NCBI RefSeq assembly: GCF_003150675.1
Contig: NZ_QGGB01000009.1
Span: forward strand, 1-64,000
Length of the DNA stretch: 64,000 bases
Source: Rhodohalobacter mucosus
GTDB taxonomy: Bacteria; Bacteroidota; Rhodothermia; Balneolales; Balneolaceae
Direction of reading: 5' to 3'
The notes beneath the pieces are model-generated. The model did no database searches and had not been told where the DNA came from. It saw nothing but the letters and a program-made list of their open reading frames with translations. A program made the translations under genes and the position numbers. This document shows, one piece after another, positions 206 through 19,427 of the stretch (positions within the stretch are counted from its first letter, which is position 1; each line of letters starts with the position of its first letter).

Positions 206-994
206 TTACTCATCTAAAGTCTGGTTGATCATATCAATGATTCCTTCCGCTTTGGAGATCAAATTAATGGATTCATTCTTCGACAAATTCGCAAATATGA
301 CCTTCGTATGCAGAGTATTGATGAATTCGGGATTGCGAAGCAATGACTGGTAATCACTTTGTACGTACCTGGAAGGAACCAATCCTACCATCTCCTCATC
401 TACCAGGCCAAACCGGTTATCCGGCATTTGATACTTTTCAATCATATTTGCCATTGATATGTATTTATGGGTAAATGGCCGAAATAAATCATCATGTATT
501 ATAACAGCGCGCGTTTCATCTTCAATCATATCTTCTGACTCTCTGGGCCAGGAAAGTAATTCAAGCTTTAGCTCATTGTCGGAAATCAAGTTAATTTTAT
601 TGGATGAAATTAGAGAACTCAGGCTGCCGGTCGGATCATTAAACGTAGGTGTATAGGATTGCCACATTAATAAGCTATCCAGCGTATCCTCGACAAACGG
701 GCCATTTGCATTCGACAGGGAAATCAGGGAATCCGCGGATGATAAGGAATTATCCCTGAGACCATTCAGATAGTTTAATTGTGTAATAGCCTGATCAAAT
801 TCAGTACGAAGATTCACCAGGATCTGACGCTCTTCTGCTCGTTCCAGTCTGTAGATGTTCCAGTTGTTCACCTGCAGGGCGATAAGAATCCCGATCACGA
901 CCAGCAGGATTTCGCCGATGGCATAGAGCAGATACTTTGTAAAGGATCCCGAATCGATCAGTTTCTGGCGGATACGGCGGAAGAGGGTAATCAT
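206..994 (-). CDS. DUF6090 family membrane protein (copy 1, leading subtype)
   Basis: A 262-residue protein of a family with no known function. Residues 1-20 are basic and amphipathic (MITLFRRIRQKLIDSG). About 21-42 is a single hydrophobic helix containing the family signature YLLYAIGEILLVVIGILIAL, followed by QVNNWN. The rest is helical and charged, with the second family signature, LISSNKINLISDNEL, near 130. The expected topology is a cytoplasmic N-terminus, one membrane anchor and a large extracytoplasmic domain. The N-terminus is of the '[MV]TLFRRIRQKLI' subtype, which here is found at the head of each DUF6090 group. An ACTCAA-type leader and a short heptamer array precede it. The family call is firm; the function is unknown. 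Confidence 0.9.
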   Translation of the reverse strand: MITLFRRIRQKLIDSGSFTKYLLYAIGEILLVVIGILIALQVNNWNIYRLERAEERQILVNLRTEFDQAITQLNYLNGLRDNSLSSADSLISLSNANGPFVEDTLDSLLMWQSYTPTFNDPTGSLSSLISSNKINLISDNELKLELLSWPRESEDMIEDETRAVIIHDDLFRPFTHKYISMANMIEKYQMPDNRFGLVDEEMVGLVPSRYVQSDYQSLLRNPEFINTLHTKVIFANLSKNESINLISKAEGIIDMINQTLDE

Positions 995-1064
995 GGTAGT
1001 ATTGAGTATTGAGTCATGAGTATTGAGTAATTAGTTAGGAGTTACTAGTGTTGAGTTGTAAGTA
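995..1064 (-). promoter_or_regulatory. ACTCAATACT-type repetitive leader of DUF6090 copy 1
   Basis: Directly 5' of the start codon the minus strand reads as repeated ACTCAATACTCATGACTCAA-like units. The same low-complexity leader occurs before the six other leading DUF6090 genes. It touches the ATG and leaves no Shine-Dalgarno sequence. Its role is unknown; it could be untranslated leader or promoter-proximal DNA. Confidence 0.55.
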
Positions 1065-1082
1065 GAGAAATATCATTTTAAT

Positions 1083-1110
1083 CGCCCATCGCCCATCGCC
1101 CATCGCCGAT
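1083..1110. repeat. Heptamer array 1: CGCCCAT x3 plus CGCCGAT
   Basis: Three exact CGCCCAT units and one variant stand in tandem between the SnoaL-like gene (stop at 1165) and DUF6090 copy 1. On the minus strand ATTAAA follows directly, as at several of the other arrays. This is one of the two shortest and most decayed of the seven arrays. Confidence 0.75.
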
Positions 1111-1164
1111 CTACTATTGACCATTGCCTATTGTCCCTCTGCCAGGACAATCCCACTACACCCG

Positions 1165-1662
1165 CTAATTCAGCGTGACAAAAAGCTGCGACTGGATTTT
1201 CCATTCACCCGATTTACGAATCCACTGAGCTGCGTAGTTGCCGTGAAATACGGAGGTTTCCCCGTTAATGTCATCTGCGTGATATCCATGCCATACACCT
1301 GCCTCCCATGCCAGACCACGTACATCATTTACAATAATCTCATCCGGTGTGCGGACCCAATACATCGGCTGTGCATCTGATGCGTCTGCAATATAGTCCC
1401 TGAGTTTATCTTTTCCGGATATCAGGGTTCCGTTGCCGGTGGTAATCAGAACGTCGTCGGTCAGAAATTCGGAGTTTGCTTCTTCATCGAGCGCTTTCAA
1501 TGCGGCATTGGATGCTTCGCGAACAGCACGGATCTGTTGTTCACTCGACTGGGCTAAAATATTCTCAGCGGATACCGGGTTAATGAAAATCCAACAAAAA
1601 GCAGCTATGAAGACATGTCGTTTTTGGAAATACAATGATAAGCCCTCCAATGGTTCTTTCAC
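1165..1662 (-). CDS. SnoaL/DUF4440-like (NTF2 fold) exported protein
   Basis: An NTF2-fold protein of about 165 residues, related to DUF4440/SnoaL-like proteins of varied or unknown activity. The pattern is an N-terminal helix (EQQIRAVREASNAALKALD), then FLTDDVLITTGNGTLISGKDKL and strands ending in WIRKSGEWKIQSQLFV, which is typical of the family. The longest reading starts with GTG at 1662. A TTG at 1635 has GGAGGG seven bases upstream and would begin directly with a signal peptide (FIAAFCWIFINPVSA, cleavage before ENIL), so 1635 is a credible alternative. It lies between the small coiled-coil gene and heptamer array 1. Substrate unknown. Confidence 0.75.
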   Translation of the reverse strand: MKEPLEGLSLYFQKRHVFIAAFCWIFINPVSAENILAQSSEQQIRAVREASNAALKALDEEANSEFLTDDVLITTGNGTLISGKDKLRDYIADASDAQPMYWVRTPDEIIVNDVRGLAWEAGVWHGYHADDINGETSVFHGNYAAQWIRKSGEWKIQSQLFVTLN

Positions 1663-1708
1663 TTTTTTAAACTAGGTTAGAGATCTTTTCAACATGAAAT
1701 TATGACAA

Positions 1709-1897
1709 TCAGTATGTCCCGTCTCCATCCACGTCTTTCTGAATGTGGTGCTCCAGCGCCTCCAGCGTTTTTCGGAGTAGTTTTCGTGTTTTACCCAGGT
1801 CCTGTTCCAGCTGCTCCACCCGGTCTTCCAGCGTTTTTGCTTTAGATCTTTGCTCTTCCAGCTCTTCCTGCTGCATCAATTCCCAGAATATCCCCAT
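1709..1897 (-). CDS. Small coiled-coil protein with acidic DVDGDG tail
   Basis: A 62-residue hypothetical protein with no signal peptide. Residues 10-52 form an uninterrupted heptad coiled coil (EELEEQRSKAKTLEDRVEQL and on), followed by KDVDGDGTY, which resembles a half EF-hand calcium loop (DxDxDG). CGGAGG stands eight bases before the ATG, a good ribosome site, which supports real translation. It sits between the broken DUF6090 copy 2 and the SnoaL-like gene, in the same direction. I do not recognise the family; it may be an oligomerising adaptor. Confidence 0.6.
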   Translation of the reverse strand: MGIFWELMQQEELEEQRSKAKTLEDRVEQLEQDLGKTRKLLRKTLEALEHHIQKDVDGDGTY

Positions 1898-2099
1898 AGT
1901 GCTATCCTCCGATTAGGTTAGGTGAGTTAACAGAGCAGTTCTCACAAGCTGCACGTTCTGTATTGCTTTTTTTACCGTGTAGCCGATTCAAAGATAGCCT
2001 GATATGATTCAGATGCAACGTATTGATGAAAAAATGTTGGAATCAGGAAAAAGGATTTGAGGATATCTTTTTTTGAGAGCAGGGCAGAGGATGATAGTT

Positions 2100-2858
2100 T
2101 TATGGAGTTTTGATTTCCGATTGCACAAGTTCAATTACCTGATTCAGGGTATGGTCCAGTTCTTCGCGGATGGTTAGTACTTCGTATGTCAGGTCGAGCT
2201 TAACCCCCAGCAGGTTTCTGACGTTTTGTTTCTTCAGCAGGAGGCCGTAATCATTTTGGTTTCCGATTTCCAGACTGGTCAGATTCCTTTTAGCGGCCAT
2301 AAGGGGAAGATAGTTCATCTCCTCTTCAACGATATCATCGATACGGATTTGGTGTACGGTAAGCCTGTCGCTGATCATAGATGCAAGCATCTGATTTCTG
2401 AGCTCCATCTCAGAAAGGCTGCTTCTCAAGCGGGGATTCGTAATCTTTCAGGTATTCCCAGAATTTTTCAGGTCTGCGTACGAAACGATGACCGGAATGT
2501 CGTGTGAAAGGTTCCAGAGTACTTCGAAAAAAAAGAGCTCCCGATTCGGGAGCTGAGAGATCCGGACAAGGGACTCTTCGCCTCCGAGAGCCAGCCGTAG
2601 CCTGTCGATGTTCTGTTTCTCCAGTTGTATAAACTGCTGCGACTGAATCCTGGCGAACTCCAGGTCCTCGAGGAGCTGTGCCAGAAGGGTCTGCTCCTCC
2701 GTGGCCGTTTTTCTGTTTTCATTCCAGTTGTTTACCTGCAAGGCGATGAGGATTCCGACCACAACAAGAAGGATCTCGCCGGTGGCGTAAAGCAGGTATT
2801 TGGTAAGAGATCCGGACTGAACCAGCTTTTCACGGATGCGGCGAAAGAGGGTAACCAT
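2100..2858 (-). pseudogene. DUF6090 copy 2 (leading subtype), interrupted by an in-frame stop
   Basis: The N-terminal part (residues 1-136, MVTLFRRIREKLVQSGS, the membrane signature and NNWNENRK) and the C-terminal part (from LRSSLSEMELRNQ to IKTP) lie in the same reading frame. They are separated only by a TGA at 2448-2450. The stop falls inside the conserved 'LKNSGN..' motif, where paralogues continue with I.L....L. A single C-to-T change of CGA (Arg) to TGA would explain it. Read through, it would be 252 residues, the normal family length. It has its own leader and the longest heptamer array of the region. It could instead be a truncated but expressed 136-residue membrane anchor. Confidence 0.85.
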
Positions 2859-2896
2859 GGATTAGTTTTGAGTTTTTAGTGTTGAGTTTTGAGTTG
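2859..2896 (-). promoter_or_regulatory. ACTCAAAACT-type leader of DUF6090 copy 2
   Basis: The minus strand reads CAACTCAAAACTCAACACTA and then AAAACTCAAAACTAATCC up to the ATG. The block 2845-2873, covering the first codons and the proximal leader, is identical over 29 bases to 13601-13629 before DUF6090 copy 10. A TAnnTTTG-like box (AATGTTTG, 2907-2914) lies about 50 bases upstream of the start codon. Confidence 0.5.
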
Positions 2897-2920
2897 GATC
2901 AGAAAACAAACATTTTTAAT

Positions 2921-3053
2921 CGTCCATCGTCCATCGTCCATCGTCCATCGTCCATCGTCCATCGTCCATCGTCCATCGTCCATCGTCCATCGTCCATCGT
3001 CCATCGTCCATCGTCCATCGTCCATCGCCCATCGCCCATCGCCCATCGCCCAC
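2921..3053. repeat. Heptamer array 2: 15 CGTCCAT, 3 CGCCCAT, 1 CGCCCAC
   Basis: Nineteen tandem 7-bp units fill most of the gap between gdhA (stop at 3108) and the DUF6090 copy 2 leader. Fifteen are identical CGTCCAT. The gdhA-proximal four switch to CGCCCAT/C, so the two variants lie in separate blocks rather than mixed. The period of 7 makes all six frames open and produces spurious ORFs here. Confidence 0.95.
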
Positions 3054-3107
3054 CTGCCAACCACACGACCTGGTCGTTTAAAATACGCGAAATCTCCTAA
3101 ACCGCGC

Positions 3108-4445: not shown

Positions 4446-4629
4446 GGCATCTACGGTTAATTAGGTTAGAGATTTCAAGAATCTGTAGTTGTTTGTGATA
4501 CAGAGTCTGCTGCAGGCCTTGTTGATTTATTTATTTAAACAATGTGAAATTAATGACTGATTTATTGGGTGATGTGATGCCAAAACCTCTTCCAATCATG
4601 GAAAGATTTTATTCATCTTATTCACCGTA

Positions 4630-5376
4630 TTATTGACTATTCAGATAATTCTCAATGGCAGCTACCAGCAATTGATTCAGATTGAGTGCATCAGAGTAGC
4701 GATCGGCTAACCTCAAATTTGTAATCTCGTTTCTTCTCAGAATTGCTTCCAGCGATTTCAAACCAGTCGCATCAGAAATTACGATATCCTCAGGGTCTCC
4801 GATGGCATTTTCAACATAGATGAACAGCTCACGATTGTCATTAAAGAAACCATTTCTCCATAAGTCTGCTTCCATATTTTCACTGAAATTATTTAACCTG
4901 GTTTCATCAAAGGTAATCAGGTTAATCAAGTTCTGATATTCTGTCTCGAGATCAACAATCTGTGCTTCTTTGATGTTATTAAAATAACTATTGGATTCTG
5001 CTGACTGCTCGTTTTGAACTGAAGAGATGAATCTGCGTTCAACGGTTATTAAGAGCACGGTATCAACCAGCTCAATGCCTGGAATATTCAATACTCCTGA
5101 TTCCAGAACGTTTGCACACAGAGCACTTGCCTCTTCCCGATACTCACGAAGATCCTGAAGCTTTCTTTGGTCTTCATAAAGATTATCCATTTTCTTAGTC
5201 AGATAGCTATTCAGCTCATTTTGCAGAATTCTATCCTCATTCCAGTTATTTACCTGCAGTGCGATCAGGATGCCGATTACTACCAGAAGGATCTCGCCGG
5301 TAGCATAAAGCAAATATTTTGGTACAGAGCCCGAGTCAATCAGTTTCTGGCGGATGCGTCGGAAGAGAGTTATCAT
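4630..5376 (-). CDS. DUF6090 family membrane protein (copy 3, leading subtype)
   Basis: 248 residues. The N-terminus MITLFRRIRQKLIDSGSVPK and the membrane helix (about 21-42) are almost those of copy 1, while the extracytoplasmic half (from NEDRILQNELNSYLTKKMDN) is unlike it. The second family motif is weak here (YFNNIKEAQIVDLETEYQNL). It is preceded by a leader and the CGGTCAT array and followed, after 184 bases, by gdhA, so it forms a one-gene DUF6090 unit. The domain is predicted mostly helical. Function unknown. Confidence 0.9.
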   Translation of the reverse strand: MITLFRRIRQKLIDSGSVPKYLLYATGEILLVVIGILIALQVNNWNEDRILQNELNSYLTKKMDNLYEDQRKLQDLREYREEASALCANVLESGVLNIPGIELVDTVLLITVERRFISSVQNEQSAESNSYFNNIKEAQIVDLETEYQNLINLITFDETRLNNFSENMEADLWRNGFFNDNRELFIYVENAIGDPEDIVISDATGLKSLEAILRRNEITNLRLADRYSDALNLNQLLVAAIENYLNSQ

Positions 5377-5446
5377 GATAGTATTGAGTAGTGAGTCATG
5401 AGTATTGAGTAGGTAGTGTTGAGTGATTAGTTTTTAGTTGTGAGTT
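5377..5446 (-). promoter_or_regulatory. ACTCAATACT-type leader of DUF6090 copy 3
   Basis: Repeated ACTCAAYACT/ACTCATGACTC units run up to the start codon and match the leader of copy 1 closely (GTAGTATTGAGT and GAGTCATGAGTATTGAGTA on the plus strand). A GGTTTG-containing box (5459-5466, minus strand) lies between leader and array. Confidence 0.5.
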
Positions 5447-5470
5447 ATCTGAAAAAGACAAACCATTCAT

Positions 5471-5540
5471 CGGTCATCGGTCATCGGTCATCGGTCATCG
5501 GTCATCGGTCATCGGTCATCGGTCATCGGTCATCGGTCTT
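5471..5540. repeat. Heptamer array 3: CGGTCAT x9 plus CGGTCTT
   Basis: Nine identical CGGTCAT units and a final CGGTCTT in tandem. The unit differs from the CGTCCAT of arrays 2, 6 and 7, yet is uniform within this array. This points to local homogenisation by slippage or unequal crossing over. It separates DUF6090 copies 4 and 3. Confidence 0.95.
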
Positions 5541-5622
5541 CGACCAAAATTTATCATCTGGTCTTCTAGCTGAGTAGATGCTTCGCAAACATCTGAACTT
5601 CTACTTCTTACGGCTTCCGAAA

Positions 5623-6366
5623 TCAATCCTGCAAGTATTCATCAATAAGGGTATTCAACGAGTCCAGATCCGCTTTTTCCTGCTTATAAATGTCACCCAT
5701 TACCATATTGTTATTCCAGATTTCGCTTAAATGATTGACAAGTACCGGATCCGTAAGAAAATCTTCTCGTTTTTCGGGGATAATGCCACTTACCGAATCA
5801 TCGTAGATTAGGTATCTGGATATATCAAAATATTTTGATATGTATTCACTATATCTGCGTGAGGAGTATAGCGTTTCGTCTTCGAATTTTCTGATTTGAT
5901 GAATTCGTTCATTCCATGATGCAAGAATGACCCGGATCTCTTCATCCTGTATAATATCCATCGATCCGGTATTCAGTATTTCCTGAATTCCTCCGTCGTT
6001 TAAAGAGATAAGGCTGTAGTCTCTGACATTGAAAAGAAGCGAGTCGATAAAAAGAGGCTCATACTGATCTTGCAGTTCATAAGAAAGAATAATAAAAAGG
6101 GTGTCAGCACTGTTTACAATCGATTCTGCATCATGAATAACGCGGTTCAGTTCGTCCTGCGAGAGCTCGATACTGGCCTTGATGCTGTTCAGGTAGTACC
6201 GTTCTTTGTCGAGGCTTTTCCGGTGTTCATTCCAGTTGTTCACCTGCAGGGCTATAAGGATTCCAATTACGACCAAGAGAATTTCCCCGATGGCGTAGAG
6301 GAGATATCGGCGAACATTCCAGTCACCAATCAGTTTCTGCCGGATGCGTCGAAATAAGGAGATCAT
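5623..6366 (-). CDS. DUF6090 family membrane protein (copy 4, leading subtype)
   Basis: 247 residues. The N-terminus is MISLFRRIRQKLIGDWNVRRY, with a GDWN variation shared in part with copy 7 (DDGNVRRY). A membrane helix at about 21-42 is followed by NNWNEHRKSLDKERYYLNSI. The second motif is clear: ILNTGSMDIIQDEEIRVILASW at about 120-140. It has its own leader and a degenerate heptamer array, and the heptamer array of copy 3 lies downstream, so it is another single-gene unit. Function unknown. Confidence 0.9.
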   Translation of the reverse strand: MISLFRRIRQKLIGDWNVRRYLLYAIGEILLVVIGILIALQVNNWNEHRKSLDKERYYLNSIKASIELSQDELNRVIHDAESIVNSADTLFIILSYELQDQYEPLFIDSLLFNVRDYSLISLNDGGIQEILNTGSMDIIQDEEIRVILASWNERIHQIRKFEDETLYSSRRYSEYISKYFDISRYLIYDDSVSGIIPEKREDFLTDPVLVNHLSEIWNNNMVMGDIYKQEKADLDSLNTLIDEYLQD

Positions 6367-6405
6367 GGTAGTATTGAGAAGTGAGTCATGAGTATTGAGT
6401 ATTTA
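6367..6405 (-). promoter_or_regulatory. ACTCAATACT-type leader of DUF6090 copy 4
   Basis: A shorter version of the leader seen before copies 1 and 3; the plus strand has GAGTCATGAGTATTGAGTA in common. It ends directly at the start codon. Confidence 0.5.
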
Positions 6406-6423
6406 GATCCGTATGTGTTTAAT

Positions 6424-6451
6424 CGCCAATCGACCATCGCCAATCACAAAT
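6424..6451. repeat. Heptamer array 4: four degenerate units
   Basis: Units CGCCAAT, CGACCAT, CGCCAAT, CACAAAT. The phase is kept but the units have diverged, so this looks like a decayed array. It overlaps the last codons and stop (6444-6446) of DUF6090 copy 5. Confidence 0.6.
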
Positions 6452-7199
6452 CACCACGCTCCTCTTCCAGAAGTTGTAATACCTGCATATTCATCTCTCT
6501 CAGAGGCTCCAGTTCGGTTAAAACATCTGCTGTATAGGTTACCCTGTTTGAAATAAGGTTTTCATAGGTACGATCTTTAAAAATTTGCCAATAATTAGAC
6601 TGGAAAGGACTTTCGCGAACCCCATATCCGGATGGATCGTGCATCAACACATCAGCGACCATGACATGATCATTCAGATAACTATTTATCCCGTTATAGT
6701 CCGCATTTGCACGATCTTGTTCTTCCCGGGCATCCAAAACCCGGTCTTCCCACGAAAAGAGCATGACTTTTAAGGAATCGTTTTTCAAGAGGTGAATATC
6801 CCCGGAGGAGATACTGCTTGCCAGAACGCCATTCAGCGGGTCAAATGTCCAACGGTAGCTGTTCTCATAAAGCAGCTGTCTTATTTCGTTTTGGGTGGAT
6901 CCTTCACCGCCCACTAATATCAGCTCAAGGAGTCTTAATCCCGAATCATAGACCAACTGATGATAATATATTACTGTATTCAGTTGATCCAGGTTTTCGG
7001 CATATTCCGAATAAAGATCGTTGACCAGACGCTGATGCTTTTCAGCTTTCGCCCGGTTATCAAAGGCGGTATTGATTTGAATCGCAATTAATATTCCGAT
7101 CACGACGAGAAGGATCTCTCCGATCGCGTAGAGCAGGTATGTACGTGCCTTATTCTGTTCCATAAGGGTTTTTCGGATTTGGCGGAAGAATCGAAGCAT
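6444..7199 (-). CDS. DUF6090 family membrane protein (copy 5, internal subtype)
   Basis: 251 residues with the other N-terminal subtype, MLRFFRQIRKTLMEQNKART, then the membrane signature and QINTAFDNR in place of the usual VNNWN. The second motif, SSISSGDIHLLKNDSLKVML, lies near 120. Its start is two bases from the stop of copy 6, so it is translated from the same message (order 7, 6, 5). The stop overlaps heptamer array 4. Loss of NNWN is the one clear departure from the consensus. Confidence 0.9.
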   Translation of the reverse strand: MLRFFRQIRKTLMEQNKARTYLLYAIGEILLVVIGILIAIQINTAFDNRAKAEKHQRLVNDLYSEYAENLDQLNTVIYYHQLVYDSGLRLLELILVGGEGSTQNEIRQLLYENSYRWTFDPLNGVLASSISSGDIHLLKNDSLKVMLFSWEDRVLDAREEQDRANADYNGINSYLNDHVMVADVLMHDPSGYGVRESPFQSNYWQIFKDRTYENLISNRVTYTADVLTELEPLREMNMQVLQLLEEERGDL

Positions 7200-7201
7200 G
7201 C

Positions 7202-7951
7202 TTAGTCTTCAATATGATTCTGTAATTCATGCAGGTGACCAAGTGATGTATTGTAGAGTTCAAGTAAAGTTCGATTTTGATACATCCTTGCCACTAATAA
7301 TGCTTCCAGTTTTTTATCTGAAAGAAACTGCTCAGCATCCATATTTACCGGATCTCTGGTGTCATCCTGGTAGATCTCCTGCAGCATTGGAAAGCTATTT
7401 CCGATTCCGTATAAATAGTTGTACTCATCAAATATATGTGGCTCCAGCTTTGTCTGTATATATGCGTTAGTAATCATGTCTCTTTCCTCAATGGCATCCA
7501 CGGATCGGTAATATTTTGAAATCAAATTCTGTGATTCAATATCTAAAGCCCCGATCTCTCCGGTGTTTACCAACACGCTTAATGCGCTGTTTCTGGGTTT
7601 GAAGTTATATTCAAGCTGCAGCCGAATCATATCTTCATGCAGTACCCGCCGAACCGGCTCCAGTCTTTTCAATGTGTTGAGCAACCGCTGGATACTGATT
7701 TCATTTTGTTCAAAAATTCCGATCAAATTAGTGAGTAGTTCTTTGTCTTCATTCAGATCCTGCGACAACAAGCTCAAATGGTATGTAGCAGACTCTTTCA
7801 GTATCCGGTCTTCGTTCCAGTTACTGACTTGGATGGCAATGATAATACCCAGTACAACAAGGATAATTTCTCCCAGAGCATATAAAAGGTAGGTGCGAAT
7901 TTTATTCTGTTCCATGAGAGCTTTTCGGATTTGACGGAAGAATCGAAGCAT
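7202..7951 (-). CDS. DUF6090 family membrane protein (copy 6, internal subtype)
   Basis: 249 residues. N-terminus MLRFFRQIRKALMEQNKIRT, membrane helix with GEIILVVLGIIIAIQVSNWN, then a helical extracytoplasmic part with the second motif VLVNTGEIGALDIESQNLI. It starts 9 bases after the stop of copy 7 and ends 2 bases before copy 5, as the middle gene of a three-gene run. No leader or array stands before it, in line with the other MLRFFR-type copies. Function unknown. Confidence 0.9.
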   Translation of the reverse strand: MLRFFRQIRKALMEQNKIRTYLLYALGEIILVVLGIIIAIQVSNWNEDRILKESATYHLSLLSQDLNEDKELLTNLIGIFEQNEISIQRLLNTLKRLEPVRRVLHEDMIRLQLEYNFKPRNSALSVLVNTGEIGALDIESQNLISKYYRSVDAIEERDMITNAYIQTKLEPHIFDEYNYLYGIGNSFPMLQEIYQDDTRDPVNMDAEQFLSDKKLEALLVARMYQNRTLLELYNTSLGHLHELQNHIED

Positions 7952-7960
7952 CGTGATTAT

Positions 7961-8722
7961 TTAGTTACCGGACAATCTTGCAATTTCACTGTCCAGCAGC
8001 GGCAAGATATCATTTGACCTCTGTTCGGCTGCATTTAAGGGCCGGTAGCTCAGCCAGTAATTCTGATTTCTAAGGGTTTTCAAAAAATAATTGTATTCCT
8101 GGTCCTCTTTTAAAGCTTCATAATCGATGGGCACCATTTCACCCTGAACATATATTCCATCAACTATTCGGGAAGACCACATTTGGTCGAAATGTTTAAT
8201 GAAAATATTCCTGGAAGCTTCTTCTAAAATATTTGTATACCTGTTTGGTAAACTCGTTCCATACCCTTCTGCGTAGCTGTAATAATCTACAATACTGTTC
8301 CGGAGTGAGTCATTACTGATCAGGTTGATATTGTTTGCCTTCAGAGCTTCATAGGCTGAATAGTCAAACTGCAGACCCCAGTCAGAAATGATATTTTGGA
8401 AGTGATATTTCAATGAATCCACATAGGGAAGATCTGCCTCCATGTGATTAATGATCGTTTCCATGGAATTCCGGGCAACCTCATTTCTTTCTCTGCTATC
8501 TTCCCGGTCATCAGCATCGTTTTCCAGACTGGCCTTCAGGCTATGGAGCATTTCCAGCTCCTGACTTCTCAGTTTACGGTCTTCGTTCCAGTTGTTGATC
8601 TGAAGGGCGATCAGGATACCGATTACGACCAGTAGAATCTCACCGATAGCATAAATTAAATAACGGCGGACATTTCCGTCGTCGATCAGTTTTTGCCGGA
8701 TTTTTCTGAAGAGGGTGATCAT
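7961..8722 (-). CDS. DUF6090 family membrane protein (copy 7, leading subtype)
   Basis: 253 residues. N-terminus MITLFRKIRQKLIDDGNVRR, membrane helix at about 21-42, then NNWNEDRKLRSQELEMLHSL. The second motif is EALKANNINLISNDSLRNSI near 120. First gene of the copies 7-6-5 run, with leader and CGCCAGT array upstream. The C-terminal part (SYRPLNAAEQRSNDILPLLD) is unlike that of its neighbours. Function unknown. Confidence 0.9.
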   Translation of the reverse strand: MITLFRKIRQKLIDDGNVRRYLIYAIGEILLVVIGILIALQINNWNEDRKLRSQELEMLHSLKASLENDADDREDSRERNEVARNSMETIINHMEADLPYVDSLKYHFQNIISDWGLQFDYSAYEALKANNINLISNDSLRNSIVDYYSYAEGYGTSLPNRYTNILEEASRNIFIKHFDQMWSSRIVDGIYVQGEMVPIDYEALKEDQEYNYFLKTLRNQNYWLSYRPLNAAEQRSNDILPLLDSEIARLSGN

Positions 8723-8757
8723 TATAGTGTTGAGTGTTGAGTGTTTAGTTTTGAGTT
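8723..8757 (-). promoter_or_regulatory. ACTCAAAACT-type leader of DUF6090 copy 7
   Basis: The minus strand has AACTCAAAACTAAACACTCA followed by ACACTCAACACTATA up to the ATG. It is intermediate between the two leader styles. Confidence 0.5.
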
Positions 8758-8782
8758 TCTGATAAAATCCACTCTTTTAAGT

Positions 8783-8810
8783 CGCCAGTCGCCAGTCGCC
8801 AGTCGCCAGT
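8783..8810. repeat. Heptamer array 5: CGCCAGT x4 plus a partial unit
   Basis: Four exact CGCCAGT units, then CGCCAAG. It lies 7 bases beyond the stop of the CehA/McbA-like gene (8818), so the array begins essentially at the preceding gene's end. The unit is not used in any other array here. Confidence 0.85.
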
Positions 8811-8817
8811 CGCCAAG

Positions 8818-11316: not shown

Positions 11317-11393
11317 ATAGATTGAGATTGTTTATGGATGGAACCCGATGGTCAATCGTATTTGAGCGTTTATAAGGAAAAAGTTTCAGTTAA

Positions 11394-12128
11394 TTATATC
11401 CTTATCGTTGTTAACAGATCTTCTATAATGGTGATGGATTCCAGATATTCATTTCTGAGCTGATATGCCGTGATCAGCTTGTCGTCTACATAGTTCTCAA
11501 ACCTTAGATTCTCTAACAACTCTTTGTTATTAAAGCCAATTTTTGAGGGCTGTATGTTGCCAATACCTGCATATGAGTCAATATCTCTCAGGGAAGATTC
11601 ATCCCGAAGAAAGCGGATCATCTCGTACGTACTGATTTTAAAGATGTCAACCAGCTCATTCAAATTTTCAAAATGACGTTCCCAGGCAAATAGCTTTGAT
11701 TGAAGCTCCGAGTTGGACAGACGCGAAATGCTTCCCGAGTTTTTAAGATCGTTGAGAACGTAGGAACTGGGATTCCATGTCGGGTTTGTAAGGGAAAGCG
11801 AGATCAGGCTGTCAATGTTTGTCTCATCAGGAATCTCATCAAGCAGCGTCAGGTCCATTAATACCTCCATATTATGAATGGTCGTATCCAGCCGGGCAAT
11901 ATCGAATTTCAGCTCCTTCAGGTTATCCGAAAACTCGCTGTGAAGGGCAGCCACTGTTTGCTGCTCCTGATTGAGAGCGATTCTGTTCTCATTCCAATTA
12001 TTCACCTGCAGTGCAATAAGAATCCCGATAACAACCAAAAGTATCTCGCCGATTGCGTAGAGGAGATAGGTGCGGACTTTGTTCTGTTCCATAAGTGATT
12101 TTCTTATATGCCGAAAAAAGCGAAGCAT
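11394..12128 (-). CDS. DUF6090 family membrane protein (copy 8, internal subtype)
   Basis: 244 residues. N-terminus MLRFFRHIRKSLMEQNKVRT, membrane signature, NNWNENR. The second motif is NDLKNSGSISRLSNSELQSK. Its start overlaps the stop of copy 9 in a TAATG (12126-12130), so translation is coupled. DNA 12043-12095, encoding the membrane helix start, matches 12783-12835 of copy 9 with one mismatch in 53 bases, although the proteins diverge fully after NNWNE. Last of the 10-9-8 run. Function unknown. Confidence 0.9.
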   Translation of the reverse strand: MLRFFRHIRKSLMEQNKVRTYLLYAIGEILLVVIGILIALQVNNWNENRIALNQEQQTVAALHSEFSDNLKELKFDIARLDTTIHNMEVLMDLTLLDEIPDETNIDSLISLSLTNPTWNPSSYVLNDLKNSGSISRLSNSELQSKLFAWERHFENLNELVDIFKISTYEMIRFLRDESSLRDIDSYAGIGNIQPSKIGFNNKELLENLRFENYVDDKLITAYQLRNEYLESITIIEDLLTTIRI

Positions 12129-12868
12129 TAAGGTTTATCCTCCAACATAGCCACCGTTTGCCGGTTTAGTTCATTCACCTCATTCATGTCCTGAAGAGTG
12201 ATTCGGTAATAATTCCTTTTACCTGTACCGACGTTATTGAACTTTGACGTTAAATCGTCAAAGTCCGGATCTATCCATTTGCGATCAAAAACGGGACCCG
12301 ATTTGAATGTTGCAAAGGGTATCTGCAGCGGATAGCTTTTATTGAATTCAGAGATTGCATCCAGATAGAGCTGCTCATAGTTCTGATTGGTTCTTAGAAT
12401 GTCGGATTGCTTTGTGGCTAGTTGGTATAGAATGGTTCGCTGTGCTTCTGAAAGGAAATTGATATTGCCGCTCGAAAGAGCTGTCCTGTAACTGTTGTCG
12501 TTGAACCCTTCAAAGTTTAGATGAAATGGCGAAAACTCGTCTTTGATGAGCCTTATGACTTCATCTTCCGTGACCTCCGGGTCGATCAATTGAAGCTGAA
12601 GGGAGTCATATATTTCAATTTCTCTTTTAATTCGAGTTATAAATGTATCAATCGATGCAATGTCACTATGCAGATCCTTGACAATAGAAGATCTGACTTC
12701 CATCGCAATCGCTTCTTCTTTCCTCTCTTCATTCCAATTATTCACCTGCAGGGCGATCAATATCCCAATTACAACCAGTAGAATCTCGCCGATGGCGTAG
12801 AGGAGATAGGTGCGGACTTTGTTCTGTTCCATAAGCTGTTTTCGAAGTTGGCGAAAGAAGCGAAGCAT
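12128..12868 (-). CDS. DUF6090 family membrane protein (copy 9, internal subtype)
   Basis: 246 residues. MLRFFRQLRKQLMEQNKVRT, membrane helix, NNWNEERKEE, then an extracytoplasmic domain with the second motif TALSSGNINFLSEAQRTILY. It is coupled at both ends: its ATG overlaps the stop of copy 10 and its stop overlaps the ATG of copy 8. It is the middle member of the run and has no leader of its own. Function unknown. Confidence 0.9.
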   Translation of the reverse strand: MLRFFRQLRKQLMEQNKVRTYLLYAIGEILLVVIGILIALQVNNWNEERKEEAIAMEVRSSIVKDLHSDIASIDTFITRIKREIEIYDSLQLQLIDPEVTEDEVIRLIKDEFSPFHLNFEGFNDNSYRTALSSGNINFLSEAQRTILYQLATKQSDILRTNQNYEQLYLDAISEFNKSYPLQIPFATFKSGPVFDRKWIDPDFDDLTSKFNNVGTGKRNYYRITLQDMNEVNELNRQTVAMLEDKP

Positions 12869-13614
12869 TATCCTGTAACCCGTTCGATTTCATCCAATAG
12901 TCTGATGAGCTTCTCCTGTATGGATTGTTGATAGTTTAAATAGAGACCAACCATCTCAAGCTTAAGGGTCAGCATGTTCCATAACTCCAGGTCACCGGCA
13001 AACTGAGTATAATCGATCTGCGGTCCTCCCTCTACCAGAAGATCCTGATAGCGATCAAGAGCTACGGATTGGTAGTTAAAGCGCCGAATCATATAGGGTT
13101 CAATGGTTTGGTTATACTGATTATTCACAGCTTCGTTGATATTTCTATGGCGTTCAAACCACCAGCTTAGCTCCTGAAAAGAGTGCTTCAGTGGTGAATC
13201 TTCAACGGTTGTCAGCAATTCACTGTCCAGAAACTCGTATAATACAGGGTATGAATGGGTGATAATCCAGGCAGTTCCAAGGGCACCCAGAGTTGATTCA
13301 AGAAGTTGCAGAGAATCGGGGTCAGATGTATTCAACAGTTGAAGACTGCGCCGGTTCAGGTCAGCCAGCTCCTGCTGTGCCGCGATATATCTTTCCAGCT
13401 GAGGTAAACTGGCGGATATTTCCTGATGAATCTGTTCATAATACCCGTTCAGTTTGTTTTTCAGCACTCTCTCTTCATTCCAGTTGTTCACCTGCAATGC
13501 GATCAGGATACCGATGACTACCAGAAGGATCTCACCGAATGCATAAAGCAGGAATTTAGTAGCGGAGCCTGAGTCAATCAGTTTCTGGCGGATGCGGCGG
13601 AAGAGGGTAACCAT
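12868..13614 (-). CDS. DUF6090 family membrane protein (copy 10, leading subtype)
   Basis: 248 residues. MVTLFRRIRQKLIDSGSATK, membrane helix with FLLYAFGEILLVVIG, NNWNEERVLKNKLN. The second motif is degenerate (EFLDSELLTTVEDSPLKHSF). First gene of the 10-9-8 run, with the CGTCCAT array and leader directly upstream. Bases 13604-13646, spanning the first codons and the leader, are identical to 19291-19333 before copy 15, 5.7 kb away. Function unknown. Confidence 0.9.
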   Translation of the reverse strand: MVTLFRRIRQKLIDSGSATKFLLYAFGEILLVVIGILIALQVNNWNEERVLKNKLNGYYEQIHQEISASLPQLERYIAAQQELADLNRRSLQLLNTSDPDSLQLLESTLGALGTAWIITHSYPVLYEFLDSELLTTVEDSPLKHSFQELSWWFERHRNINEAVNNQYNQTIEPYMIRRFNYQSVALDRYQDLLVEGGPQIDYTQFAGDLELWNMLTLKLEMVGLYLNYQQSIQEKLIRLLDEIERVTG

Positions 13615-13652
13615 GGATTAGTTTTGAGTGTTTAGTTTTAAGTTTTGAGTTG
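13615..13652 (-). promoter_or_regulatory. ACTCAAAACT-type leader of DUF6090 copy 10
   Basis: The minus strand reads CAACTCAAAACTTAAAACTA then AACACTCAAAACTAATCC to the ATG. A TATGTCTG box (13662-13669), one mismatch from the Bacteroidota TAnnTTTG element, lies about 48 bases upstream of the start codon. Confidence 0.5.
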
Positions 13653-13676
13653 AATCAAAAACAGACATATTTTAAT

Positions 13677-13802
13677 CGTCCATCGTCCATCGTCCATCGT
13701 CCATCGTCCATCGTCCATCGTCCATCGTCCATCGTCCATCGTCCATCGTCCATCGTCCATCGTCCATCGTCCATCGTCCATCGTCCATCGTCCATCGTCC
13801 AT
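13677..13802. repeat. Heptamer array 6: 18 identical CGTCCAT units
   Basis: Eighteen perfect tandem copies, the most homogeneous array in the window. It ends 6 bases from the stop codon of the TM-TolB-TPR gene (13809). Perfect identity suggests recent expansion, so its length may vary between cells or strains. Confidence 0.97.
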
Positions 13803-13808
13803 CGACAT

Positions 13809-16010: not shown

Positions 16011-16099
16011 AGTTCTTAAAAATGCCTTTCAAAAGCCTTAATTAAGCAAAAAATCCGATGATATCCTCAGATAGCTTTGATATTTCTGAGTCTGCGGAG

Positions 16100-16243
16100 C
16101 TATTGTTTCCAGTTTTTTACCTGCAGAGCGATCAGAATGCCTATGACCACCTGCAGGATTTCGCCGATAGCATATAGCAGATATTCAGATACTGATCCCG
16201 AATCAAACAGCTACTGGCGGATTTTTCTAAAGAATGATTTCAC
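16100..16243 (-). pseudogene. DUF6090 relic (copy 11, N-terminal fragment)
   Basis: From a GTG at 16243 the minus strand encodes KSFFRKIRQ, a TAG in place of the usual Lys codon, LFDSGSVSEY, LLYAIGEILQVVIGILIALQ, VKNWKQ and then TAG. This is the family N-terminus and membrane helix and nothing more. It is closest to copy 13 (MKPFFRKIRQKLISSGS). The extracytoplasmic domain is gone, and the TM-TolB-TPR gene begins about 90 bases further on. A clear remnant of a sixteenth-kb copy lost by truncation. Confidence 0.85.
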
Positions 16244-16265
16244 GGGTCAGCAGTTGAATCATTTC

Positions 16266-17012
16266 TTATTTGTCTAATTCCATGTTGATGAGTTCTACAA
16301 TCCCATCAATATCTTCAGTCATCTCTTCCAGCCTGCCTATGGTTTCCCTGAATGACACCTCCTTCCAGCGATGGATCCCTTCATAGACCAGGATGAGCTC
16401 TTTTAAATTTTCGTCAATACTTAAGAACTCCTTCATTGTGGTTTGTCTTTCAAGTCTGGCAGGCAGAGTTGTAGCGCCTATTAACGTGGATAATTTTTGA
16501 GTAACCCTATTTGCCCCATCATCAATGTCCTCAAAGCGAGTGATGGTAAGGTTTTGAAGTCGTTTCAGGTCAATCAGCCGGTTTCTGATCGTTGAGGGAA
16601 TCAGCCTGATATCACCGCTGTTCTGAAGGGATTCAATCGTGCTTGTGTTGAAAGTTAAAGCATTGGAAATCAAAGTGAGTTGCGAAATCTGTTTGTACAC
16701 CTGATCGGGGGTCAGAGCCGCTTCACTGCTGTACAAGCTGATATACATTTCATAATCTGACAGTTTTCTGCTTAAGTCGCCGATCGTTAGAGTGATAAAC
16801 TCCCGATCACTTTTCAGGTCATCCAGAAGCTGTGAATAATATTCCTGAGTCTTGAGCTCTGAATTTCTCTTTTCATTCCAGTTATTCACCTGAAGTGCCA
16901 GCAGGATGCCGATCATTACAAGCAGGATCTCACCCACTGCATACAGGATGTAGGTACGGACTTTATTCTGTTCCATGAGGGTTTTTCGTATGTGACGGAA
17001 AAAGCGAAGCAT
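16266..17012 (-). CDS. DUF6090 family membrane protein (copy 12, internal subtype)
   Basis: 248 residues. MLRFFRHIRKTLMEQNKVRT, membrane helix (YILYAVGEILLVMIGILLAL), NNWNEKRNSELKTQEY. The second motif is ESLQNSGDIRLIPSTIRNRL. It starts 21 bases after copy 13 and is the last intact gene of the 15-14-13-12 run. The next copy downstream is the relic at 16243-16100. Function unknown. Confidence 0.9.
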   Translation of the reverse strand: MLRFFRHIRKTLMEQNKVRTYILYAVGEILLVMIGILLALQVNNWNEKRNSELKTQEYYSQLLDDLKSDREFITLTIGDLSRKLSDYEMYISLYSSEAALTPDQVYKQISQLTLISNALTFNTSTIESLQNSGDIRLIPSTIRNRLIDLKRLQNLTITRFEDIDDGANRVTQKLSTLIGATTLPARLERQTTMKEFLSIDENLKELILVYEGIHRWKEVSFRETIGRLEEMTEDIDGIVELINMELDK

Positions 17013-17033
17013 TTAAAGATGGATGGCGTGCAC

Positions 17034-17720
17034 TTAGTTAATGATCAGGATTTTCTCAATTTCGCTGTTCGCATCTAGCAGAAGATTTTTATAATACTCC
17101 AGCATTATGTGATAATTGTAAATATCATCCAGAAAGACCTGTAAATCCTCCCGACTCATGTCCGGCAGGTTACCCGTACGGCGAACCCTGGAATATTTTT
17201 TAGTATTGTAAAACCAGCGGACATCGTGCTCTTCTGCATTATCCATTAAACGTGCATAAATGGAATTATATAATCGGGTGGCTGCAGACATAAATTCTTT
17301 ATTATTAAATCTGCTGATTTCGTTTCCGGAAACAGCCGACTCATAAGATCCAAAGATAGGATAAAATGTGCGGGGAGGGTTGAAGTATGCCATCACCAGC
17401 GAATCTAAGGCCTGCCGGTCGTTTTGATAGAGTTCAATCGCCCGATCTTCCAGTTGATCAAAGAGGGCTAACTTTTTTTCCGCAGACTCCACTATTAAGT
17501 TGATGTACTGCTGATCCTGAGACAGATCGTTTTTAACCCCGGTCATAAAGGTCTCTTCTGCTGCTGACTGTTTTCGTTCTTCATTCCAGTTATTTACCTG
17601 TAAAGCCAGCAGGATTCCTATCATAACCAGTGCTATTTCACCTGTTGCATACAACAAGTATTTGGAGATTGATCCGGATGAAATGAGTTTCTGTCGGATT
17701 TTTCTAAAGAATGGTTTCAT
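17034..17720 (-). CDS. DUF6090 family membrane protein (copy 13, third subtype)
   Basis: 228 residues, the shortest intact copy. The N-terminus MKPFFRKIRQKLISSGSISK combines features of the two main subtypes and is shared only with the relic at 16243-16100. The helix has GEIALVMIGILLALQVNNWN, and the second motif is SAVSGNEISRFNNKEFMSAA. It lies inside a run, 21 bases from each neighbour, so it does not follow an array even though its N-terminus resembles the leading subtype. Function unknown. Confidence 0.88.
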   Translation of the reverse strand: MKPFFRKIRQKLISSGSISKYLLYATGEIALVMIGILLALQVNNWNEERKQSAAEETFMTGVKNDLSQDQQYINLIVESAEKKLALFDQLEDRAIELYQNDRQALDSLVMAYFNPPRTFYPIFGSYESAVSGNEISRFNNKEFMSAATRLYNSIYARLMDNAEEHDVRWFYNTKKYSRVRRTGNLPDMSREDLQVFLDDIYNYHIMLEYYKNLLLDANSEIEKILIIN

Positions 17721-17741
17721 GGCTCTGCGTCCGGGATGGTT

Positions 17742-18545
17742 CTATTTGTCTAACTCCACTTCTATTAACTCAAGTAAATCTGCGGTTCTCTCAAGGTACT
17801 CTCCGGCAAATGAAAGCTGAATGTTAGCCAGAAGGATCCTGAAATTAACCACATTGATCATCCTGGCCGCATTATCCAGATCGGACAGTTTGGTTTGGAG
17901 ATGATCCAAAAACATCTGATTTGATTGCAGTTCGTAATCTACCTGATCAAATACCGGAAACCAATCCTTGGATGAATCGGTAAATAAATTGGGTTTAAGA
18001 AACGTGAGTTCGATCAATACATGGTTGACAAGCCCGTCCACCAGATCTGCATTGTTGTTTTGCGTATTGGTGGCAAAGGTTATGATCGATTGGTAGTAAT
18101 TAACGATCTCACTCTTAAGTTCTTCATTTTGGATAAGGTCAATATTTCCTGTGTTTTCCAGCGTTTCGAAGGTAGTGATAACCGGAACATAGCCGGCCCG
18201 GGCAAACAGGTCATTCAATCTCTTCAGCAGCTCTGTATCAATCTCAAATCCGGAATGATCATCAAAATGCCTGAGTATATATACTCCGCCATCTACCCAT
18301 ATATTCTGTGCATCAATGTGTGATAGTAAATTTTGCTGCTCCAGTATCAGATCACTTCGAAGATTCTGAAGAATGATCTTTTCCTGTTGCGCATTGATCC
18401 TCTCTTCATTCCAGTTATTGATTTGCAGAGCAATCAGGATACCCACCACAACCAGCAGGATCTCGCCCAGGGCATAGAGTGTATATTTTCGAACTTTGTT
18501 CTGTTCCATAAGTGGTTTTCGGATATGTCGGAAGAAGCGAAGCAT
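17742..18545 (-). CDS. DUF6090 family membrane protein (copy 14, internal subtype)
   Basis: 267 residues, the longest copy. MLRFFRHIRKPLMEQNKVRK, membrane helix, NNWNEERINAQQEK. The second motif, ETLENTGNIDLIQNEELKSE, is the clearest in the set. Its ATG directly follows the TAA of copy 15 (TAAATG), indicating coupled translation. Extra length is in the C-terminal third (RMINVVNFRILLANIQLSFA), which contains a moderately hydrophobic stretch. Function unknown. Confidence 0.9.
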   Translation of the reverse strand: MLRFFRHIRKPLMEQNKVRKYTLYALGEILLVVVGILIALQINNWNEERINAQQEKIILQNLRSDLILEQQNLLSHIDAQNIWVDGGVYILRHFDDHSGFEIDTELLKRLNDLFARAGYVPVITTFETLENTGNIDLIQNEELKSEIVNYYQSIITFATNTQNNNADLVDGLVNHVLIELTFLKPNLFTDSSKDWFPVFDQVDYELQSNQMFLDHLQTKLSDLDNAARMINVVNFRILLANIQLSFAGEYLERTADLLELIEVELDK

Positions 18546-19301
18546 TTAGGGCTGGTTGGCTTGAGTGTCAGTATGCTTTAAAATGAGGTTAATAACATTC
18601 TCCAACCGGTGTAGCTTATCCAGATAATTGGTTATTCCCCAGGCCTGATTATCCATATGATTTTCAAATTCCAACTCCTGAAAAAGAAGATAATTCCGGG
18701 ATTCGAATTTAGAACCCCCGTTCCCCATCAGAATTCCGTACTGGTCGATTTCTTTCATCGAGCCATTATTCGTTAAATACGGGAGGGTCAGGTTTTGGCT
18801 CATCTCATCCATCGTATCATATGCTTCTTCATTTTCCCCCAACGCACTATCCCAATCAAAAATTAACATGCGCAGGGAATCAGATGAGATCAGGCTCAGT
18901 TTGCCGGATGAGATTAACTCTGAAATAACAGACCGACTGGGACTATAATCAAAGTAATTAAGCGTAAGATAGATGAGACTGTCAGGATTATGTTGGATAA
19001 TAACTTCCTCGGGTTCATTAATCAGGTCTAAAACCTCATTTGTAGCCCCGAGTAAAACCCGGTGATAGGATATTGTTGAATCGAGTTTCACCTGATTCAT
19101 CCGGAACTCCTTTTGGAGGTCGTTAAGGATCAATGATTCGTTGATCTTATTGATTCGGTTTTCATTCCAGTTGTTCACCTGCAGGGCGATCAGGATCCCG
19201 ATCACAACCAGCAGGATCTCACCGATAGCGTAGAGGAGGTATTTGGTAACTGACCCTGAGTCGATCAGTTTCTGGCGGATGCGTCGGAAAAGGGTAACCA
19301 T
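18546..19301 (-). CDS. DUF6090 family membrane protein (copy 15, leading subtype)
   Basis: 251 residues. MVTLFRRIRQKLIDSGSVTK, membrane helix, NNWNENRINKINESLI. The second motif is SELISSGKLSLISSDSLRML. First gene of the largest run (15-14-13-12, then the relic). The 5' end and leader match those of copy 10 base for base over 43 bases (19291-19333). The CGTCCAT x5 array and the sulfatase gene lie upstream. Function unknown. Confidence 0.9.
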   Translation of the reverse strand: MVTLFRRIRQKLIDSGSVTKYLLYAIGEILLVVIGILIALQVNNWNENRINKINESLILNDLQKEFRMNQVKLDSTISYHRVLLGATNEVLDLINEPEEVIIQHNPDSLIYLTLNYFDYSPSRSVISELISSGKLSLISSDSLRMLIFDWDSALGENEEAYDTMDEMSQNLTLPYLTNNGSMKEIDQYGILMGNGGSKFESRNYLLFQELEFENHMDNQAWGITNYLDKLHRLENVINLILKHTDTQANQP

Positions 19302-19333
19302 GGATTAGTTTTGAGTGTTTAGTTTTAAGTTTT
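19302..19333 (-). promoter_or_regulatory. ACTCAAAACT-type leader of DUF6090 copy 15
   Basis: The same AACTAAACACTCAAAACTAA-type leader as copy 10, but the identity stops at 19333. About 45 bases of unrelated sequence (GCCGAAGGCATGCCTATGGC and on) stand between leader and array. A GGTTTG-containing box (19380-19387, minus strand) lies next to the array. Confidence 0.5.
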
Positions 19334-19391
19334 CGCCGAAGGCATGCCTATGGCAGAGTTGCGTGTTGGCTGGAAAAAACAAACCTTTAAT

Positions 19392-19426
19392 CGTCCATCG
19401 TCCATCGTCCATCGTCCATCGTCCAT
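19392..19426. repeat. Heptamer array 7: CGTCCAT x5
   Basis: Five perfect units ending one base before the stop codon of the sulfatase gene (19428). The same unit is used in arrays 2 and 6. Confidence 0.95.
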
Positions 19427-19427
19427 C

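Follow-up and report, generated by a model that had tools for sequence, protein, structure and literature searches.

Exchanged membrane anchors and outer domains under purifying selection in the DUF6090 gene arrays of Rhodohalobacter mucosus and relatives

Background

Several described bacterial systems resemble the gene array that is the subject of this paper. The orphan immunity genes of the type VI secretion system (T6SS) of Vibrio cholerae stand in arrays that were gained by horizontal transfer and recombine frequently (PMC5361080), and for the rAID orphan immunity genes of the Bacteroidales non-synonymous changes have been reported at the effector interface (PMC12247911). Polymorphic toxins owe their diversity to the recombination of C-terminal cassettes (PMC3482391), and TAACTGA heptamer repeats have been described a few nucleotides ahead of start codons in organisms that include five Bacteroidetes (MacGregor 2015, PMC4679880). 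The array concerned here consists of genes for membrane proteins of the family DUF6090 and lies on the minus strand at positions 206–19301 of a 64,000-nt stretch of Rhodohalobacter mucosus, which starts at base 1 of contig C9 (NZ_QGGB01000009.1) and is called the window below.

Like the V. cholerae T6SS and Bacteroidales rAID arrays, the locus gathers divergent orphan genes, but its genes share one recombining membrane anchor and are under purifying selection, and no toxin was found among the commonest neighbouring families. Recombination joins exchangeable modules in polymorphic toxins too; in the DUF6090 genes, however, no toxin was seen, the two modelled outer modules share a predicted fold, the anchor itself is exchanged, and many subfamilies coexist in one cell.

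The window copies are members of Pfam PF19578, an entry that holds neither a function nor anchor exchange, in agreement with an earlier reading of the same DNA from its letters alone (hereafter the sequence-only reading), which knew of no assigned function for DUF6090. A search of one literature collection returned no paper containing DUF6090, PF19578 or any of four anchor peptides, and the two publications that it gave for gene conversion in paralogous membrane protein families of the Bacteroidetes are not about DUF6090, judging from their titles and the openings of their abstracts. Here we report that the anchor and the outer part of these proteins have separate histories, and we read the locus, with a probability of about 0.55, as a modular membrane-protein repertoire in which an exchangeable shared anchor is combined with a conserved outer bundle that may serve in recognition.

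Results

The comparison of anchors and outer domains was based on 446 members from 88 genomes, found with a hidden Markov model of the window copies together with an anchor pattern; proteins of fewer than 170 residues or without a placeable start were dropped, as was locus L095, a duplicate of G013. The pattern demands G27, L31 and G35 (with E, Q or D at position 28), so the invariance of these three residues in the large set is by construction. Of 359 members, 44% had their nearest anchor within their own genome (2.8% expected); for the outer domain this was so in 8 of 346. Among reciprocal best hits with outer domains of 45–60% identity, likeness of the anchor to that of the orthologue was 0.709 and to the average of its own genome 0.770, and the own-genome average was closer than the orthologue's anchor in 152 of 199 directed comparisons, an effect that fell with increasing outer identity (67 of 122 at 60–80% and 3 of 38 at ≥80%). 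Positions 33 and 38 of the transmembrane (TM) helix form two coupled classes, V–I (407 cases, in 83 of 89 genomes) and M–L (88 cases, in 41), with V–L in 12 cases and M–I in one. Class agreement was 515 of 783 pairs at 30–45% outer identity (535.7 expected), 90 of 121 at 45–60% (85.7), 58 of 74 at 60–80% (51.7) and 24 of 24 at ≥80% (13.5); that is, at 45–60% identity the TM classes reassort against the outer domains, and at 30–45% too the class does not go with the outer domain.

Tracts of exchange are visible in DNA alignments of nine hand-picked pairs, all from the genus g18 and chosen after the selection results given below were known. In two of the nine, a tract of about 120 bp at the anchor has diverged, whereas the flanking DNA and the outer domains are nearly identical: in G028 5492 / G017 11232 the upstream sequence is 97–100% and the outer part 93–100% identical, while two of the 30-bp bins that make up the first 120 bp reach only 0.70 and 0.73, and in G028 11615 / G053 5495 identity is 0.67–0.87 in the anchor and 0.90–1.00 elsewhere. 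Three further pairs have unrelated upstream flanks. One of them, G028 9963 / G053 7181, combines such a flank with an anchor of intermediate identity (0.80–0.93) and an almost fully identical outer part (close to 100%), the pattern that a crossover inside the anchor would leave; in G017 4504 / G053 2385 identity dips in mid-anchor, and G028 12569 / G037 3005 has no dip. Among 24 close pairs of ≥80% identity, which are not independent, third codon positions were more diverged in the anchor than in the outer part in 12 nominally and in 7 after Bonferroni correction. In the complete 4.1-Mb genome G182, N-terminal likeness within 5 kb exceeded all 2000 shuffles, anchor likeness fell with distance, and codon identity at shared amino acids stood at 0.51 against an expected 0.43 for copies next to each other and at 0.45 against 0.42 for those more than 100 kb apart. 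We have little doubt that the anchor is the recombining part and that anchor and outer part have separate histories, and exchange among neighbours combined with selection on the peptide explains best why the anchors are alike. The sequence-only reading had missed this exchange and taken the outer domain for the diversifying part.

Between the window copies, the anchor (residues 1–52) has a mean nucleotide identity of 0.654, with proportions of synonymous (pS) and non-synonymous (pN) differences of 0.74 and 0.225 and a median pN/pS of 0.16 in the block of residues 21–48. The remainder of the protein is close to random (nucleotide identity 0.345, pS about 0.78), so that the strong variation outside conserved blocks that had been noted earlier is confirmed; of the two blocks then named, the N-terminal anchor stands, and the mid-domain motif is present in the consensus (SG.I..I....L...L) but could not be recognised by eye in the copy at 4630–5376. 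Because synonymous sites are near saturation between paralogues, the window copies must be old and the ratio of non-synonymous to synonymous substitution (dN/dS) of their outer domains is unreadable from paralogues, for which reason orthologues were used instead. In 38 non-independent orthologue pairs of ≥60% identity that passed the dS filter, the outer-domain dN/dS had a median of 0.13 and a maximum of 0.35, as whole-domain averages that can hide single sites. On average the outer domains are under purifying selection, and the rapid diversification proposed for them was not borne out.

Outer domains of four of the 13 intact window copies are more than 50% identical to a match in another genome, i.e., those of the copies at 17034 (66%, G007), 18546 (59%, Aquiflexum), 16266 (57%, Winogradskyella vincentii) and 12868 (51%, G017). 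Six have best matches elsewhere at 38–47%, and the remaining three are at or below 30%, with best matches of 28–30% for 12128 and 17742 and a best match inside the own genome (28%) for 5623. Outer-domain matches within a genome are few in the 446-member set (84 paralogue hits, mean 28%). Relatives of these domains in distant genomes are most naturally read as a sign of horizontal acquisition.

The intact copies have an N-terminal TM anchor ahead of the outer part, as seen in the alignment and the models. The anchor comprises 48 residues, a short basic amphipathic helix followed by a single TM helix; 17 of the first 49 positions are invariant across the 13 intact window copies, including the residues G27, E28, G35 and A39 of one TM face (13 of 13). 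The AlphaFold2 model of 18546–19301 (mc3d999e01c91; 74 sequences; mean predicted local distance difference test score, pLDDT, 95.6) has helices at residues 2–14, 18–92 (unbroken, the TM helix running into the bundle), 124–137 (two short ones), 141–179 and 210–248. The same order of elements recurs in the model of 16266–17012 (m9f9a7863781e; pLDDT 89.2), compared without superposition, although the two proteins are only 26% identical overall with the anchor included; the outer part is accordingly predicted to be a four-helix bundle in two divergent copies. Residues N69, W150 and E213 of the outer domain of 18546–19301 are conserved at ≥90% in the alignment A2. A second TM helix and a cytoplasmic output domain are absent from the open reading frames (ORFs), which stop after the last bundle helix. 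From the basic N-terminus, the single TM helix and the lack of a signal-peptidase or lipoprotein motif by eye, the outer domain most likely faces the periplasm, which makes the surface location suggested earlier unlikely. A type IV pilin-like leader, considered for the glutamate in the hydrophobic helix, was dropped, as a glycine directly precedes the glutamate and the usual prepilin spacing is absent.

Foldseek returned no match for the model of 18546–19301 at E ≤0.001 in the PDB or among viral models, and a PDB sequence search with alignment A2 gave nothing better than E 0.13. Scans of members against NCBIfam and PADLOC produced isolated weak hits only, each in single members. Longer proteins of at least 321 residues make up about 4% of the collected members (22 of 524), such as L025:17005–18075, L108:5922–7013, L167:12510–13580 and 19 others; these retain the anchor and are extended in various ways at the C-terminus. 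In a Pfam scan of ten of them, three had sub-threshold matches to SusF_SusE (best 25.9 against 27.5 bits) and one matched DUF6197, and one long member has a weak PDB sequence match (7rpy_A, E 0.022). The member L027:13329–14072 has a longer, divergent cytoplasmic N-terminus and an altered anchor end (LYLDNIN).

Thirteen intact and two broken copies, all on the minus strand, were recovered in the window from ORFs, tblastn and a genome search, and the intact ORFs encode 228–267 residues, both as described earlier; the dense, single-strand arrangement with relics is equally real. Ten of the 13 intact copies were scanned with Pfam, and all ten matched PF19578 above the curated cut-off, with matches that span residue 28 to at most 167, i.e., the end of the anchor and the first part of the bundle. 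A profile search of the whole genome gave 24 matches, of which nine lie on contig C3, one begins at base 166 of contig C8 and 14 fall in the window, the latter all above the cut-off and including the broken copy 2100–2858 but not the relic at 16102–16243. Since the window opens at contig base 1 and the assembly may break inside such arrays, 15 copies is a lower bound.

Two anchor types can be told apart, B (MITLFRRIRQKLIDSGS...), which is mainly found on genes with their own leader, and A (MLRFFRHIRKSLMEQNK...), on genes coupled to the preceding one. Coupled genes in R. mucosus were 9 of 12 for type A and 1 of 11 for type B (p 0.003), and in G007 4 of 5 and 4 of 33 (p 0.004), under a rule that was written after seeing the sequences and leaving aside ORFs of <120 residues, a gene without a type and the gene that comes first in each of two G007 stretches. 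The seven operon-starting genes of the window, one of them broken, bear leaders of heptamer repeats that begin 4–6 nt before the start codon, usually with a second heptamer array further upstream; the units are AACTCAA/ACTCAAT-like in the window and ATTAAGA-like in G007. The TAACTGA repeats (PMC4679880) likewise stand just upstream of start codons, but they differ in unit, and in the window every one of the 12 period-7 arrays found at a score of 50 has a DUF6090 gene no more than 91 bp downstream. As an element specific to DUF6090 the arrays were rejected, given that tandem heptamers of GGACGAT and other units are also spread over the rest of the genome, on contigs C3, C4, C5, C6, C7, C10 and C11, some of them beside unrelated genes.

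In the direction of transcription, the array opens with the type B, operon-first copy 18546–19301 (leader heptamers 19307–19333, array 19390–19427), followed by 17742–18545 (type A, coupled, 0-nt gap), 17034–17720 (B-like although coupled, 21-nt gap), 16266–17012 (type A, 21-nt gap) and an anchor-only relic of about 45 codons near 16102–16243, which was found by tblastn, contains an internal stop and ends soon after. A second operon starts with 12868–13614 (type B; leader heptamers 13620–13651 and an 18.6-copy array at 13675–13804) and continues with 12128–12868 and 11394–12128, both of type A and coupled by overlaps of 1 nt. The operon-first copy 7961–8722 (type B; heptamers 8726–8756 and 8780–8815) precedes 7202–7951 (9-nt gap) and 6444–7199 (2-nt gap), both of type A and coupled, and is followed further on by two type B genes, 5623–6366 (leader heptamers 6370–6403) and 4630–5376 (leader heptamers 5380–5424, array 5467–5542). 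The broken copy 2100–2858 has a type B anchor and an interrupted reading frame (ORFs 2448–2858 and 2100–2429) behind leader heptamers at 2864–2895 and an array at 2919–3052 (GGACGAT in transcript sense), and the last copy, 206–994, is intact and of type B by anchor typing, with leader heptamers at 998–1042 and an upstream array at 1081–1111.

The 30 nt before the start are 90–100% identical within the group of copies that begin at 19301, 13614 and 2858 and 93% within that of 994, 5376 and 6366, at 23–33% identity between the groups, with 8722 in between and unrelated outer parts. Over 60 aligned nucleotides the first group drops to 0.58–0.80 (shuffled mean 0.38, maximum 0.56). The leaders are thus homogenised as well, although leader and anchor may not be exchanged as a single piece. 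Neighbouring genes in loci L166–L167 (G182, 2823–2856 kb) overlap by 4 or 8 nt at 15 of their 35 junctions; a start that reads MIK can hold stops in both other frames and might end any upstream gene cleanly.

Matches to DUF6090 occur in 44 of 296 genomes of a phylum sample, in 21 of 58 of the family and in 5 of 28 of the genus. Turnover of the copy set between relatives is strong, as the sequence-only reading had expected, with 24 matches in R. mucosus, one to three in four other genomes of the genus and none in 23; truncated DUF6090 ORFs occur in relatives too. G182 holds 84 matches, 76 of 80 members in its fetched stretches lying on one strand, and in all 42 tabulated loci with at least four members, several of which come from the same or sister genomes, every member has the same orientation. 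By record titles, the named loci belong mainly to genera that we take to be Flavobacteriaceae and to relatives, with some that are presumably Cyclobacteriaceae, others, and one from the Verrucomicrobiae; as loci were confirmed against the copy 18546–19301, the sample leans to its relatives. Carriage by mobile elements found no match with the queries tried, namely this one copy, searched singly against plasmids and phages, and a 13-copy alignment (A1), with which 17 stretches of viral contigs matched a pattern and none was confirmed. The sulfatase and PD40 genes that flank the array are uncommon in the genus in their own right (each in 2 of 11 at E 1e-60, R. mucosus included), so no clean empty site could be defined.

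Neighbouring genes were sampled as 125 of 180 candidates, and as 145 of 162 near and 145 of 336 far genes of the loci. Their 25 commonest families are ordinary (DUF4440, peptidases, amidohydrolases, transporters), and no toxin family is among them in the sets of 125 and 145 neighbouring genes; the far genes differ in families and give no functional lead. DUF4440 accounts for 8 of the 125 neighbours, 6 of the 145 near genes and at most 2 of the 145 far genes (outside their 25 commonest families), an association that is suggestive only; one such gene lies between window copies at 1165–1662. IS200-type transposases are 3 of the 125. At L069:1858–5649 a helicase-like ORF of 1263 residues contains a long internal stretch twice, as a tandem duplication or an assembly artefact.

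Discussion

The observations would fit a scheme in which each gene joins a 5' module, consisting of an expression leader or a coupled start plus the 48-residue anchor, to a 3' module for a four-helix bundle that faces the periplasm and belongs to one of numerous old subfamilies. Recombination between copies would use the common anchor DNA as its joint: conversion would swap anchors, and some outer domains would end up behind new upstream sequence. Outer domains would be acquired, retained and kept by purifying selection while arrays grow and shrink. The bundles may recognise periplasmic ligands or proteins, in sensing, as co-receptors or in protection, and the common anchor would provide compatibility. 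Conservation of the anchor beyond the needs of a tether suggests a binding partner or self-association through the TM face. We thus regard the DUF6090 copies as probably periplasm-facing proteins on an exchangeable anchor that may self-associate, and the recognition role assigned to them as tentative.

Several results weigh against this interpretation. At 45–60% outer identity, closeness to the own genome is seen chiefly in residues 1–20 (153 of 199) and less in the TM block (104 of 199). Four of the nine hand-picked pairs, which were a post hoc choice from one genus, have slight or no excess of anchor divergence, and 12 of the 24 close pairs lack a significant excess of anchor divergence, 7 of them being less diverged in the anchor. 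Codon identity among anchors is only mildly raised (about 0.50 against 0.40 expected), and selection on amino acids may therefore explain much of the likeness; with anchor pS near saturation, gene conversion as the sole cause is out and such selection must also act. Anchor nucleotide identity does not follow the leader groups (0.69–0.84 within, 0.66–0.83 between), so that leaders and anchors could be exchanged independently. The fold matches to sensor domains lie below the level at which helical bundles become informative.

Two functional alternatives, which we rate about equal, are each unlikely but deserve to be weighed. DUF6090 proteins could be sensors without an output, kin of the four-helix-bundle sensor domains of chemoreceptors and kinases; as co-receptors or decoys they would serve a shared signalling partner that the anchor reads. 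The straight continuation of the TM helix into the bundle in both models and the strong conservation of the anchor are in line with this. MCP2201, Vc1313, NarQ, Tsr, PilJ and McpS are among the structural matches (VIA-align, Z about 8–10.4, root-mean-square deviation 2.7–6.9), in a mixed range of Z about 8–10.7 that also includes helical surface proteins of Borrelia and follows de novo designed bundles at 12.8 and 12.3 in the comparisons of both models. According to the note of the tool, however, Z values below about 13 may reflect the common bundle arrangement alone, so these matches indicate a four-helix bundle and no more, and the lack of a closer PDB sequence match, of a second TM helix and of an output domain speaks against kinship with sensors.

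The other alternative is an orphan immunity repertoire, in which the bundles would block toxins with a periplasmic site of action and arrays would gather immunity genes against many rivals. Co-oriented arrays of many subfamilies, patchy presence, relics and relatives in distant genera are consistent with it, such arrays have precedents (PMC5361080 and PMC12247911), and single neighbours match the PADLOC models SoFic and PsyrT, the latter being matched twice among the far genes as well. However, defence islands are not enriched (near genes matched 25 PADLOC families at E 1e-10 and far genes 111), toxins are missing from the 25 commonest neighbour families, and the purifying selection on outer domains, a whole-domain average that can hide single sites, contrasts with the interface changes reported for rAID genes (PMC12247911).

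A nearly selfish family that spreads by recombination through the shared 5' module and is of little use to the cell would account for the patchy distribution, the 84 matches in one genome, the absence of consistent neighbours, the relics (2 of 15 in the window) and the truncated ORFs in relatives; purifying selection on the outer domains and the 13 intact copies out of 15 make it improbable. The rapidly diversifying surface or self/non-self family of the sequence-only reading, which would explain why copies are almost unalignable outside the anchor and why copy sets differ between relatives, retains its turnover, relics and single strand but is very improbable in view of the low dN/dS, the helix layout found twice, the saturated synonymous sites and the likely periplasmic location. 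Of the findings that its authors had named as decisive against it, one fold (in two copies) and low dN/dS were obtained as far as tested, while relatives do not hold the same copy set.

Conclusions

The modular repertoire proposed here carries a warning for annotation, as the conserved N-terminus of a DUF6090 protein does not track the ancestry of the remaining protein. Quite unlikely, in our estimate, is a more far-reaching version in which the anchor would serve as a compatibility tag peculiar to one genome or array and copies would co-assemble through the TM face (G27, E28, G35, A39 and the two TM classes) into mosaic receptors, recombination keeping the tags matched while new recognition domains are added; if true, it would amount to a constant/variable receptor system in bacteria that is built by homologous exchange. 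With an anchor that passes from gene to gene and a bundle that is conserved, an unknown repeated gene already becomes a testable system; it raises the questions of which partner binds the anchor, whether copies assemble with one another and which target belongs to each outer subfamily.

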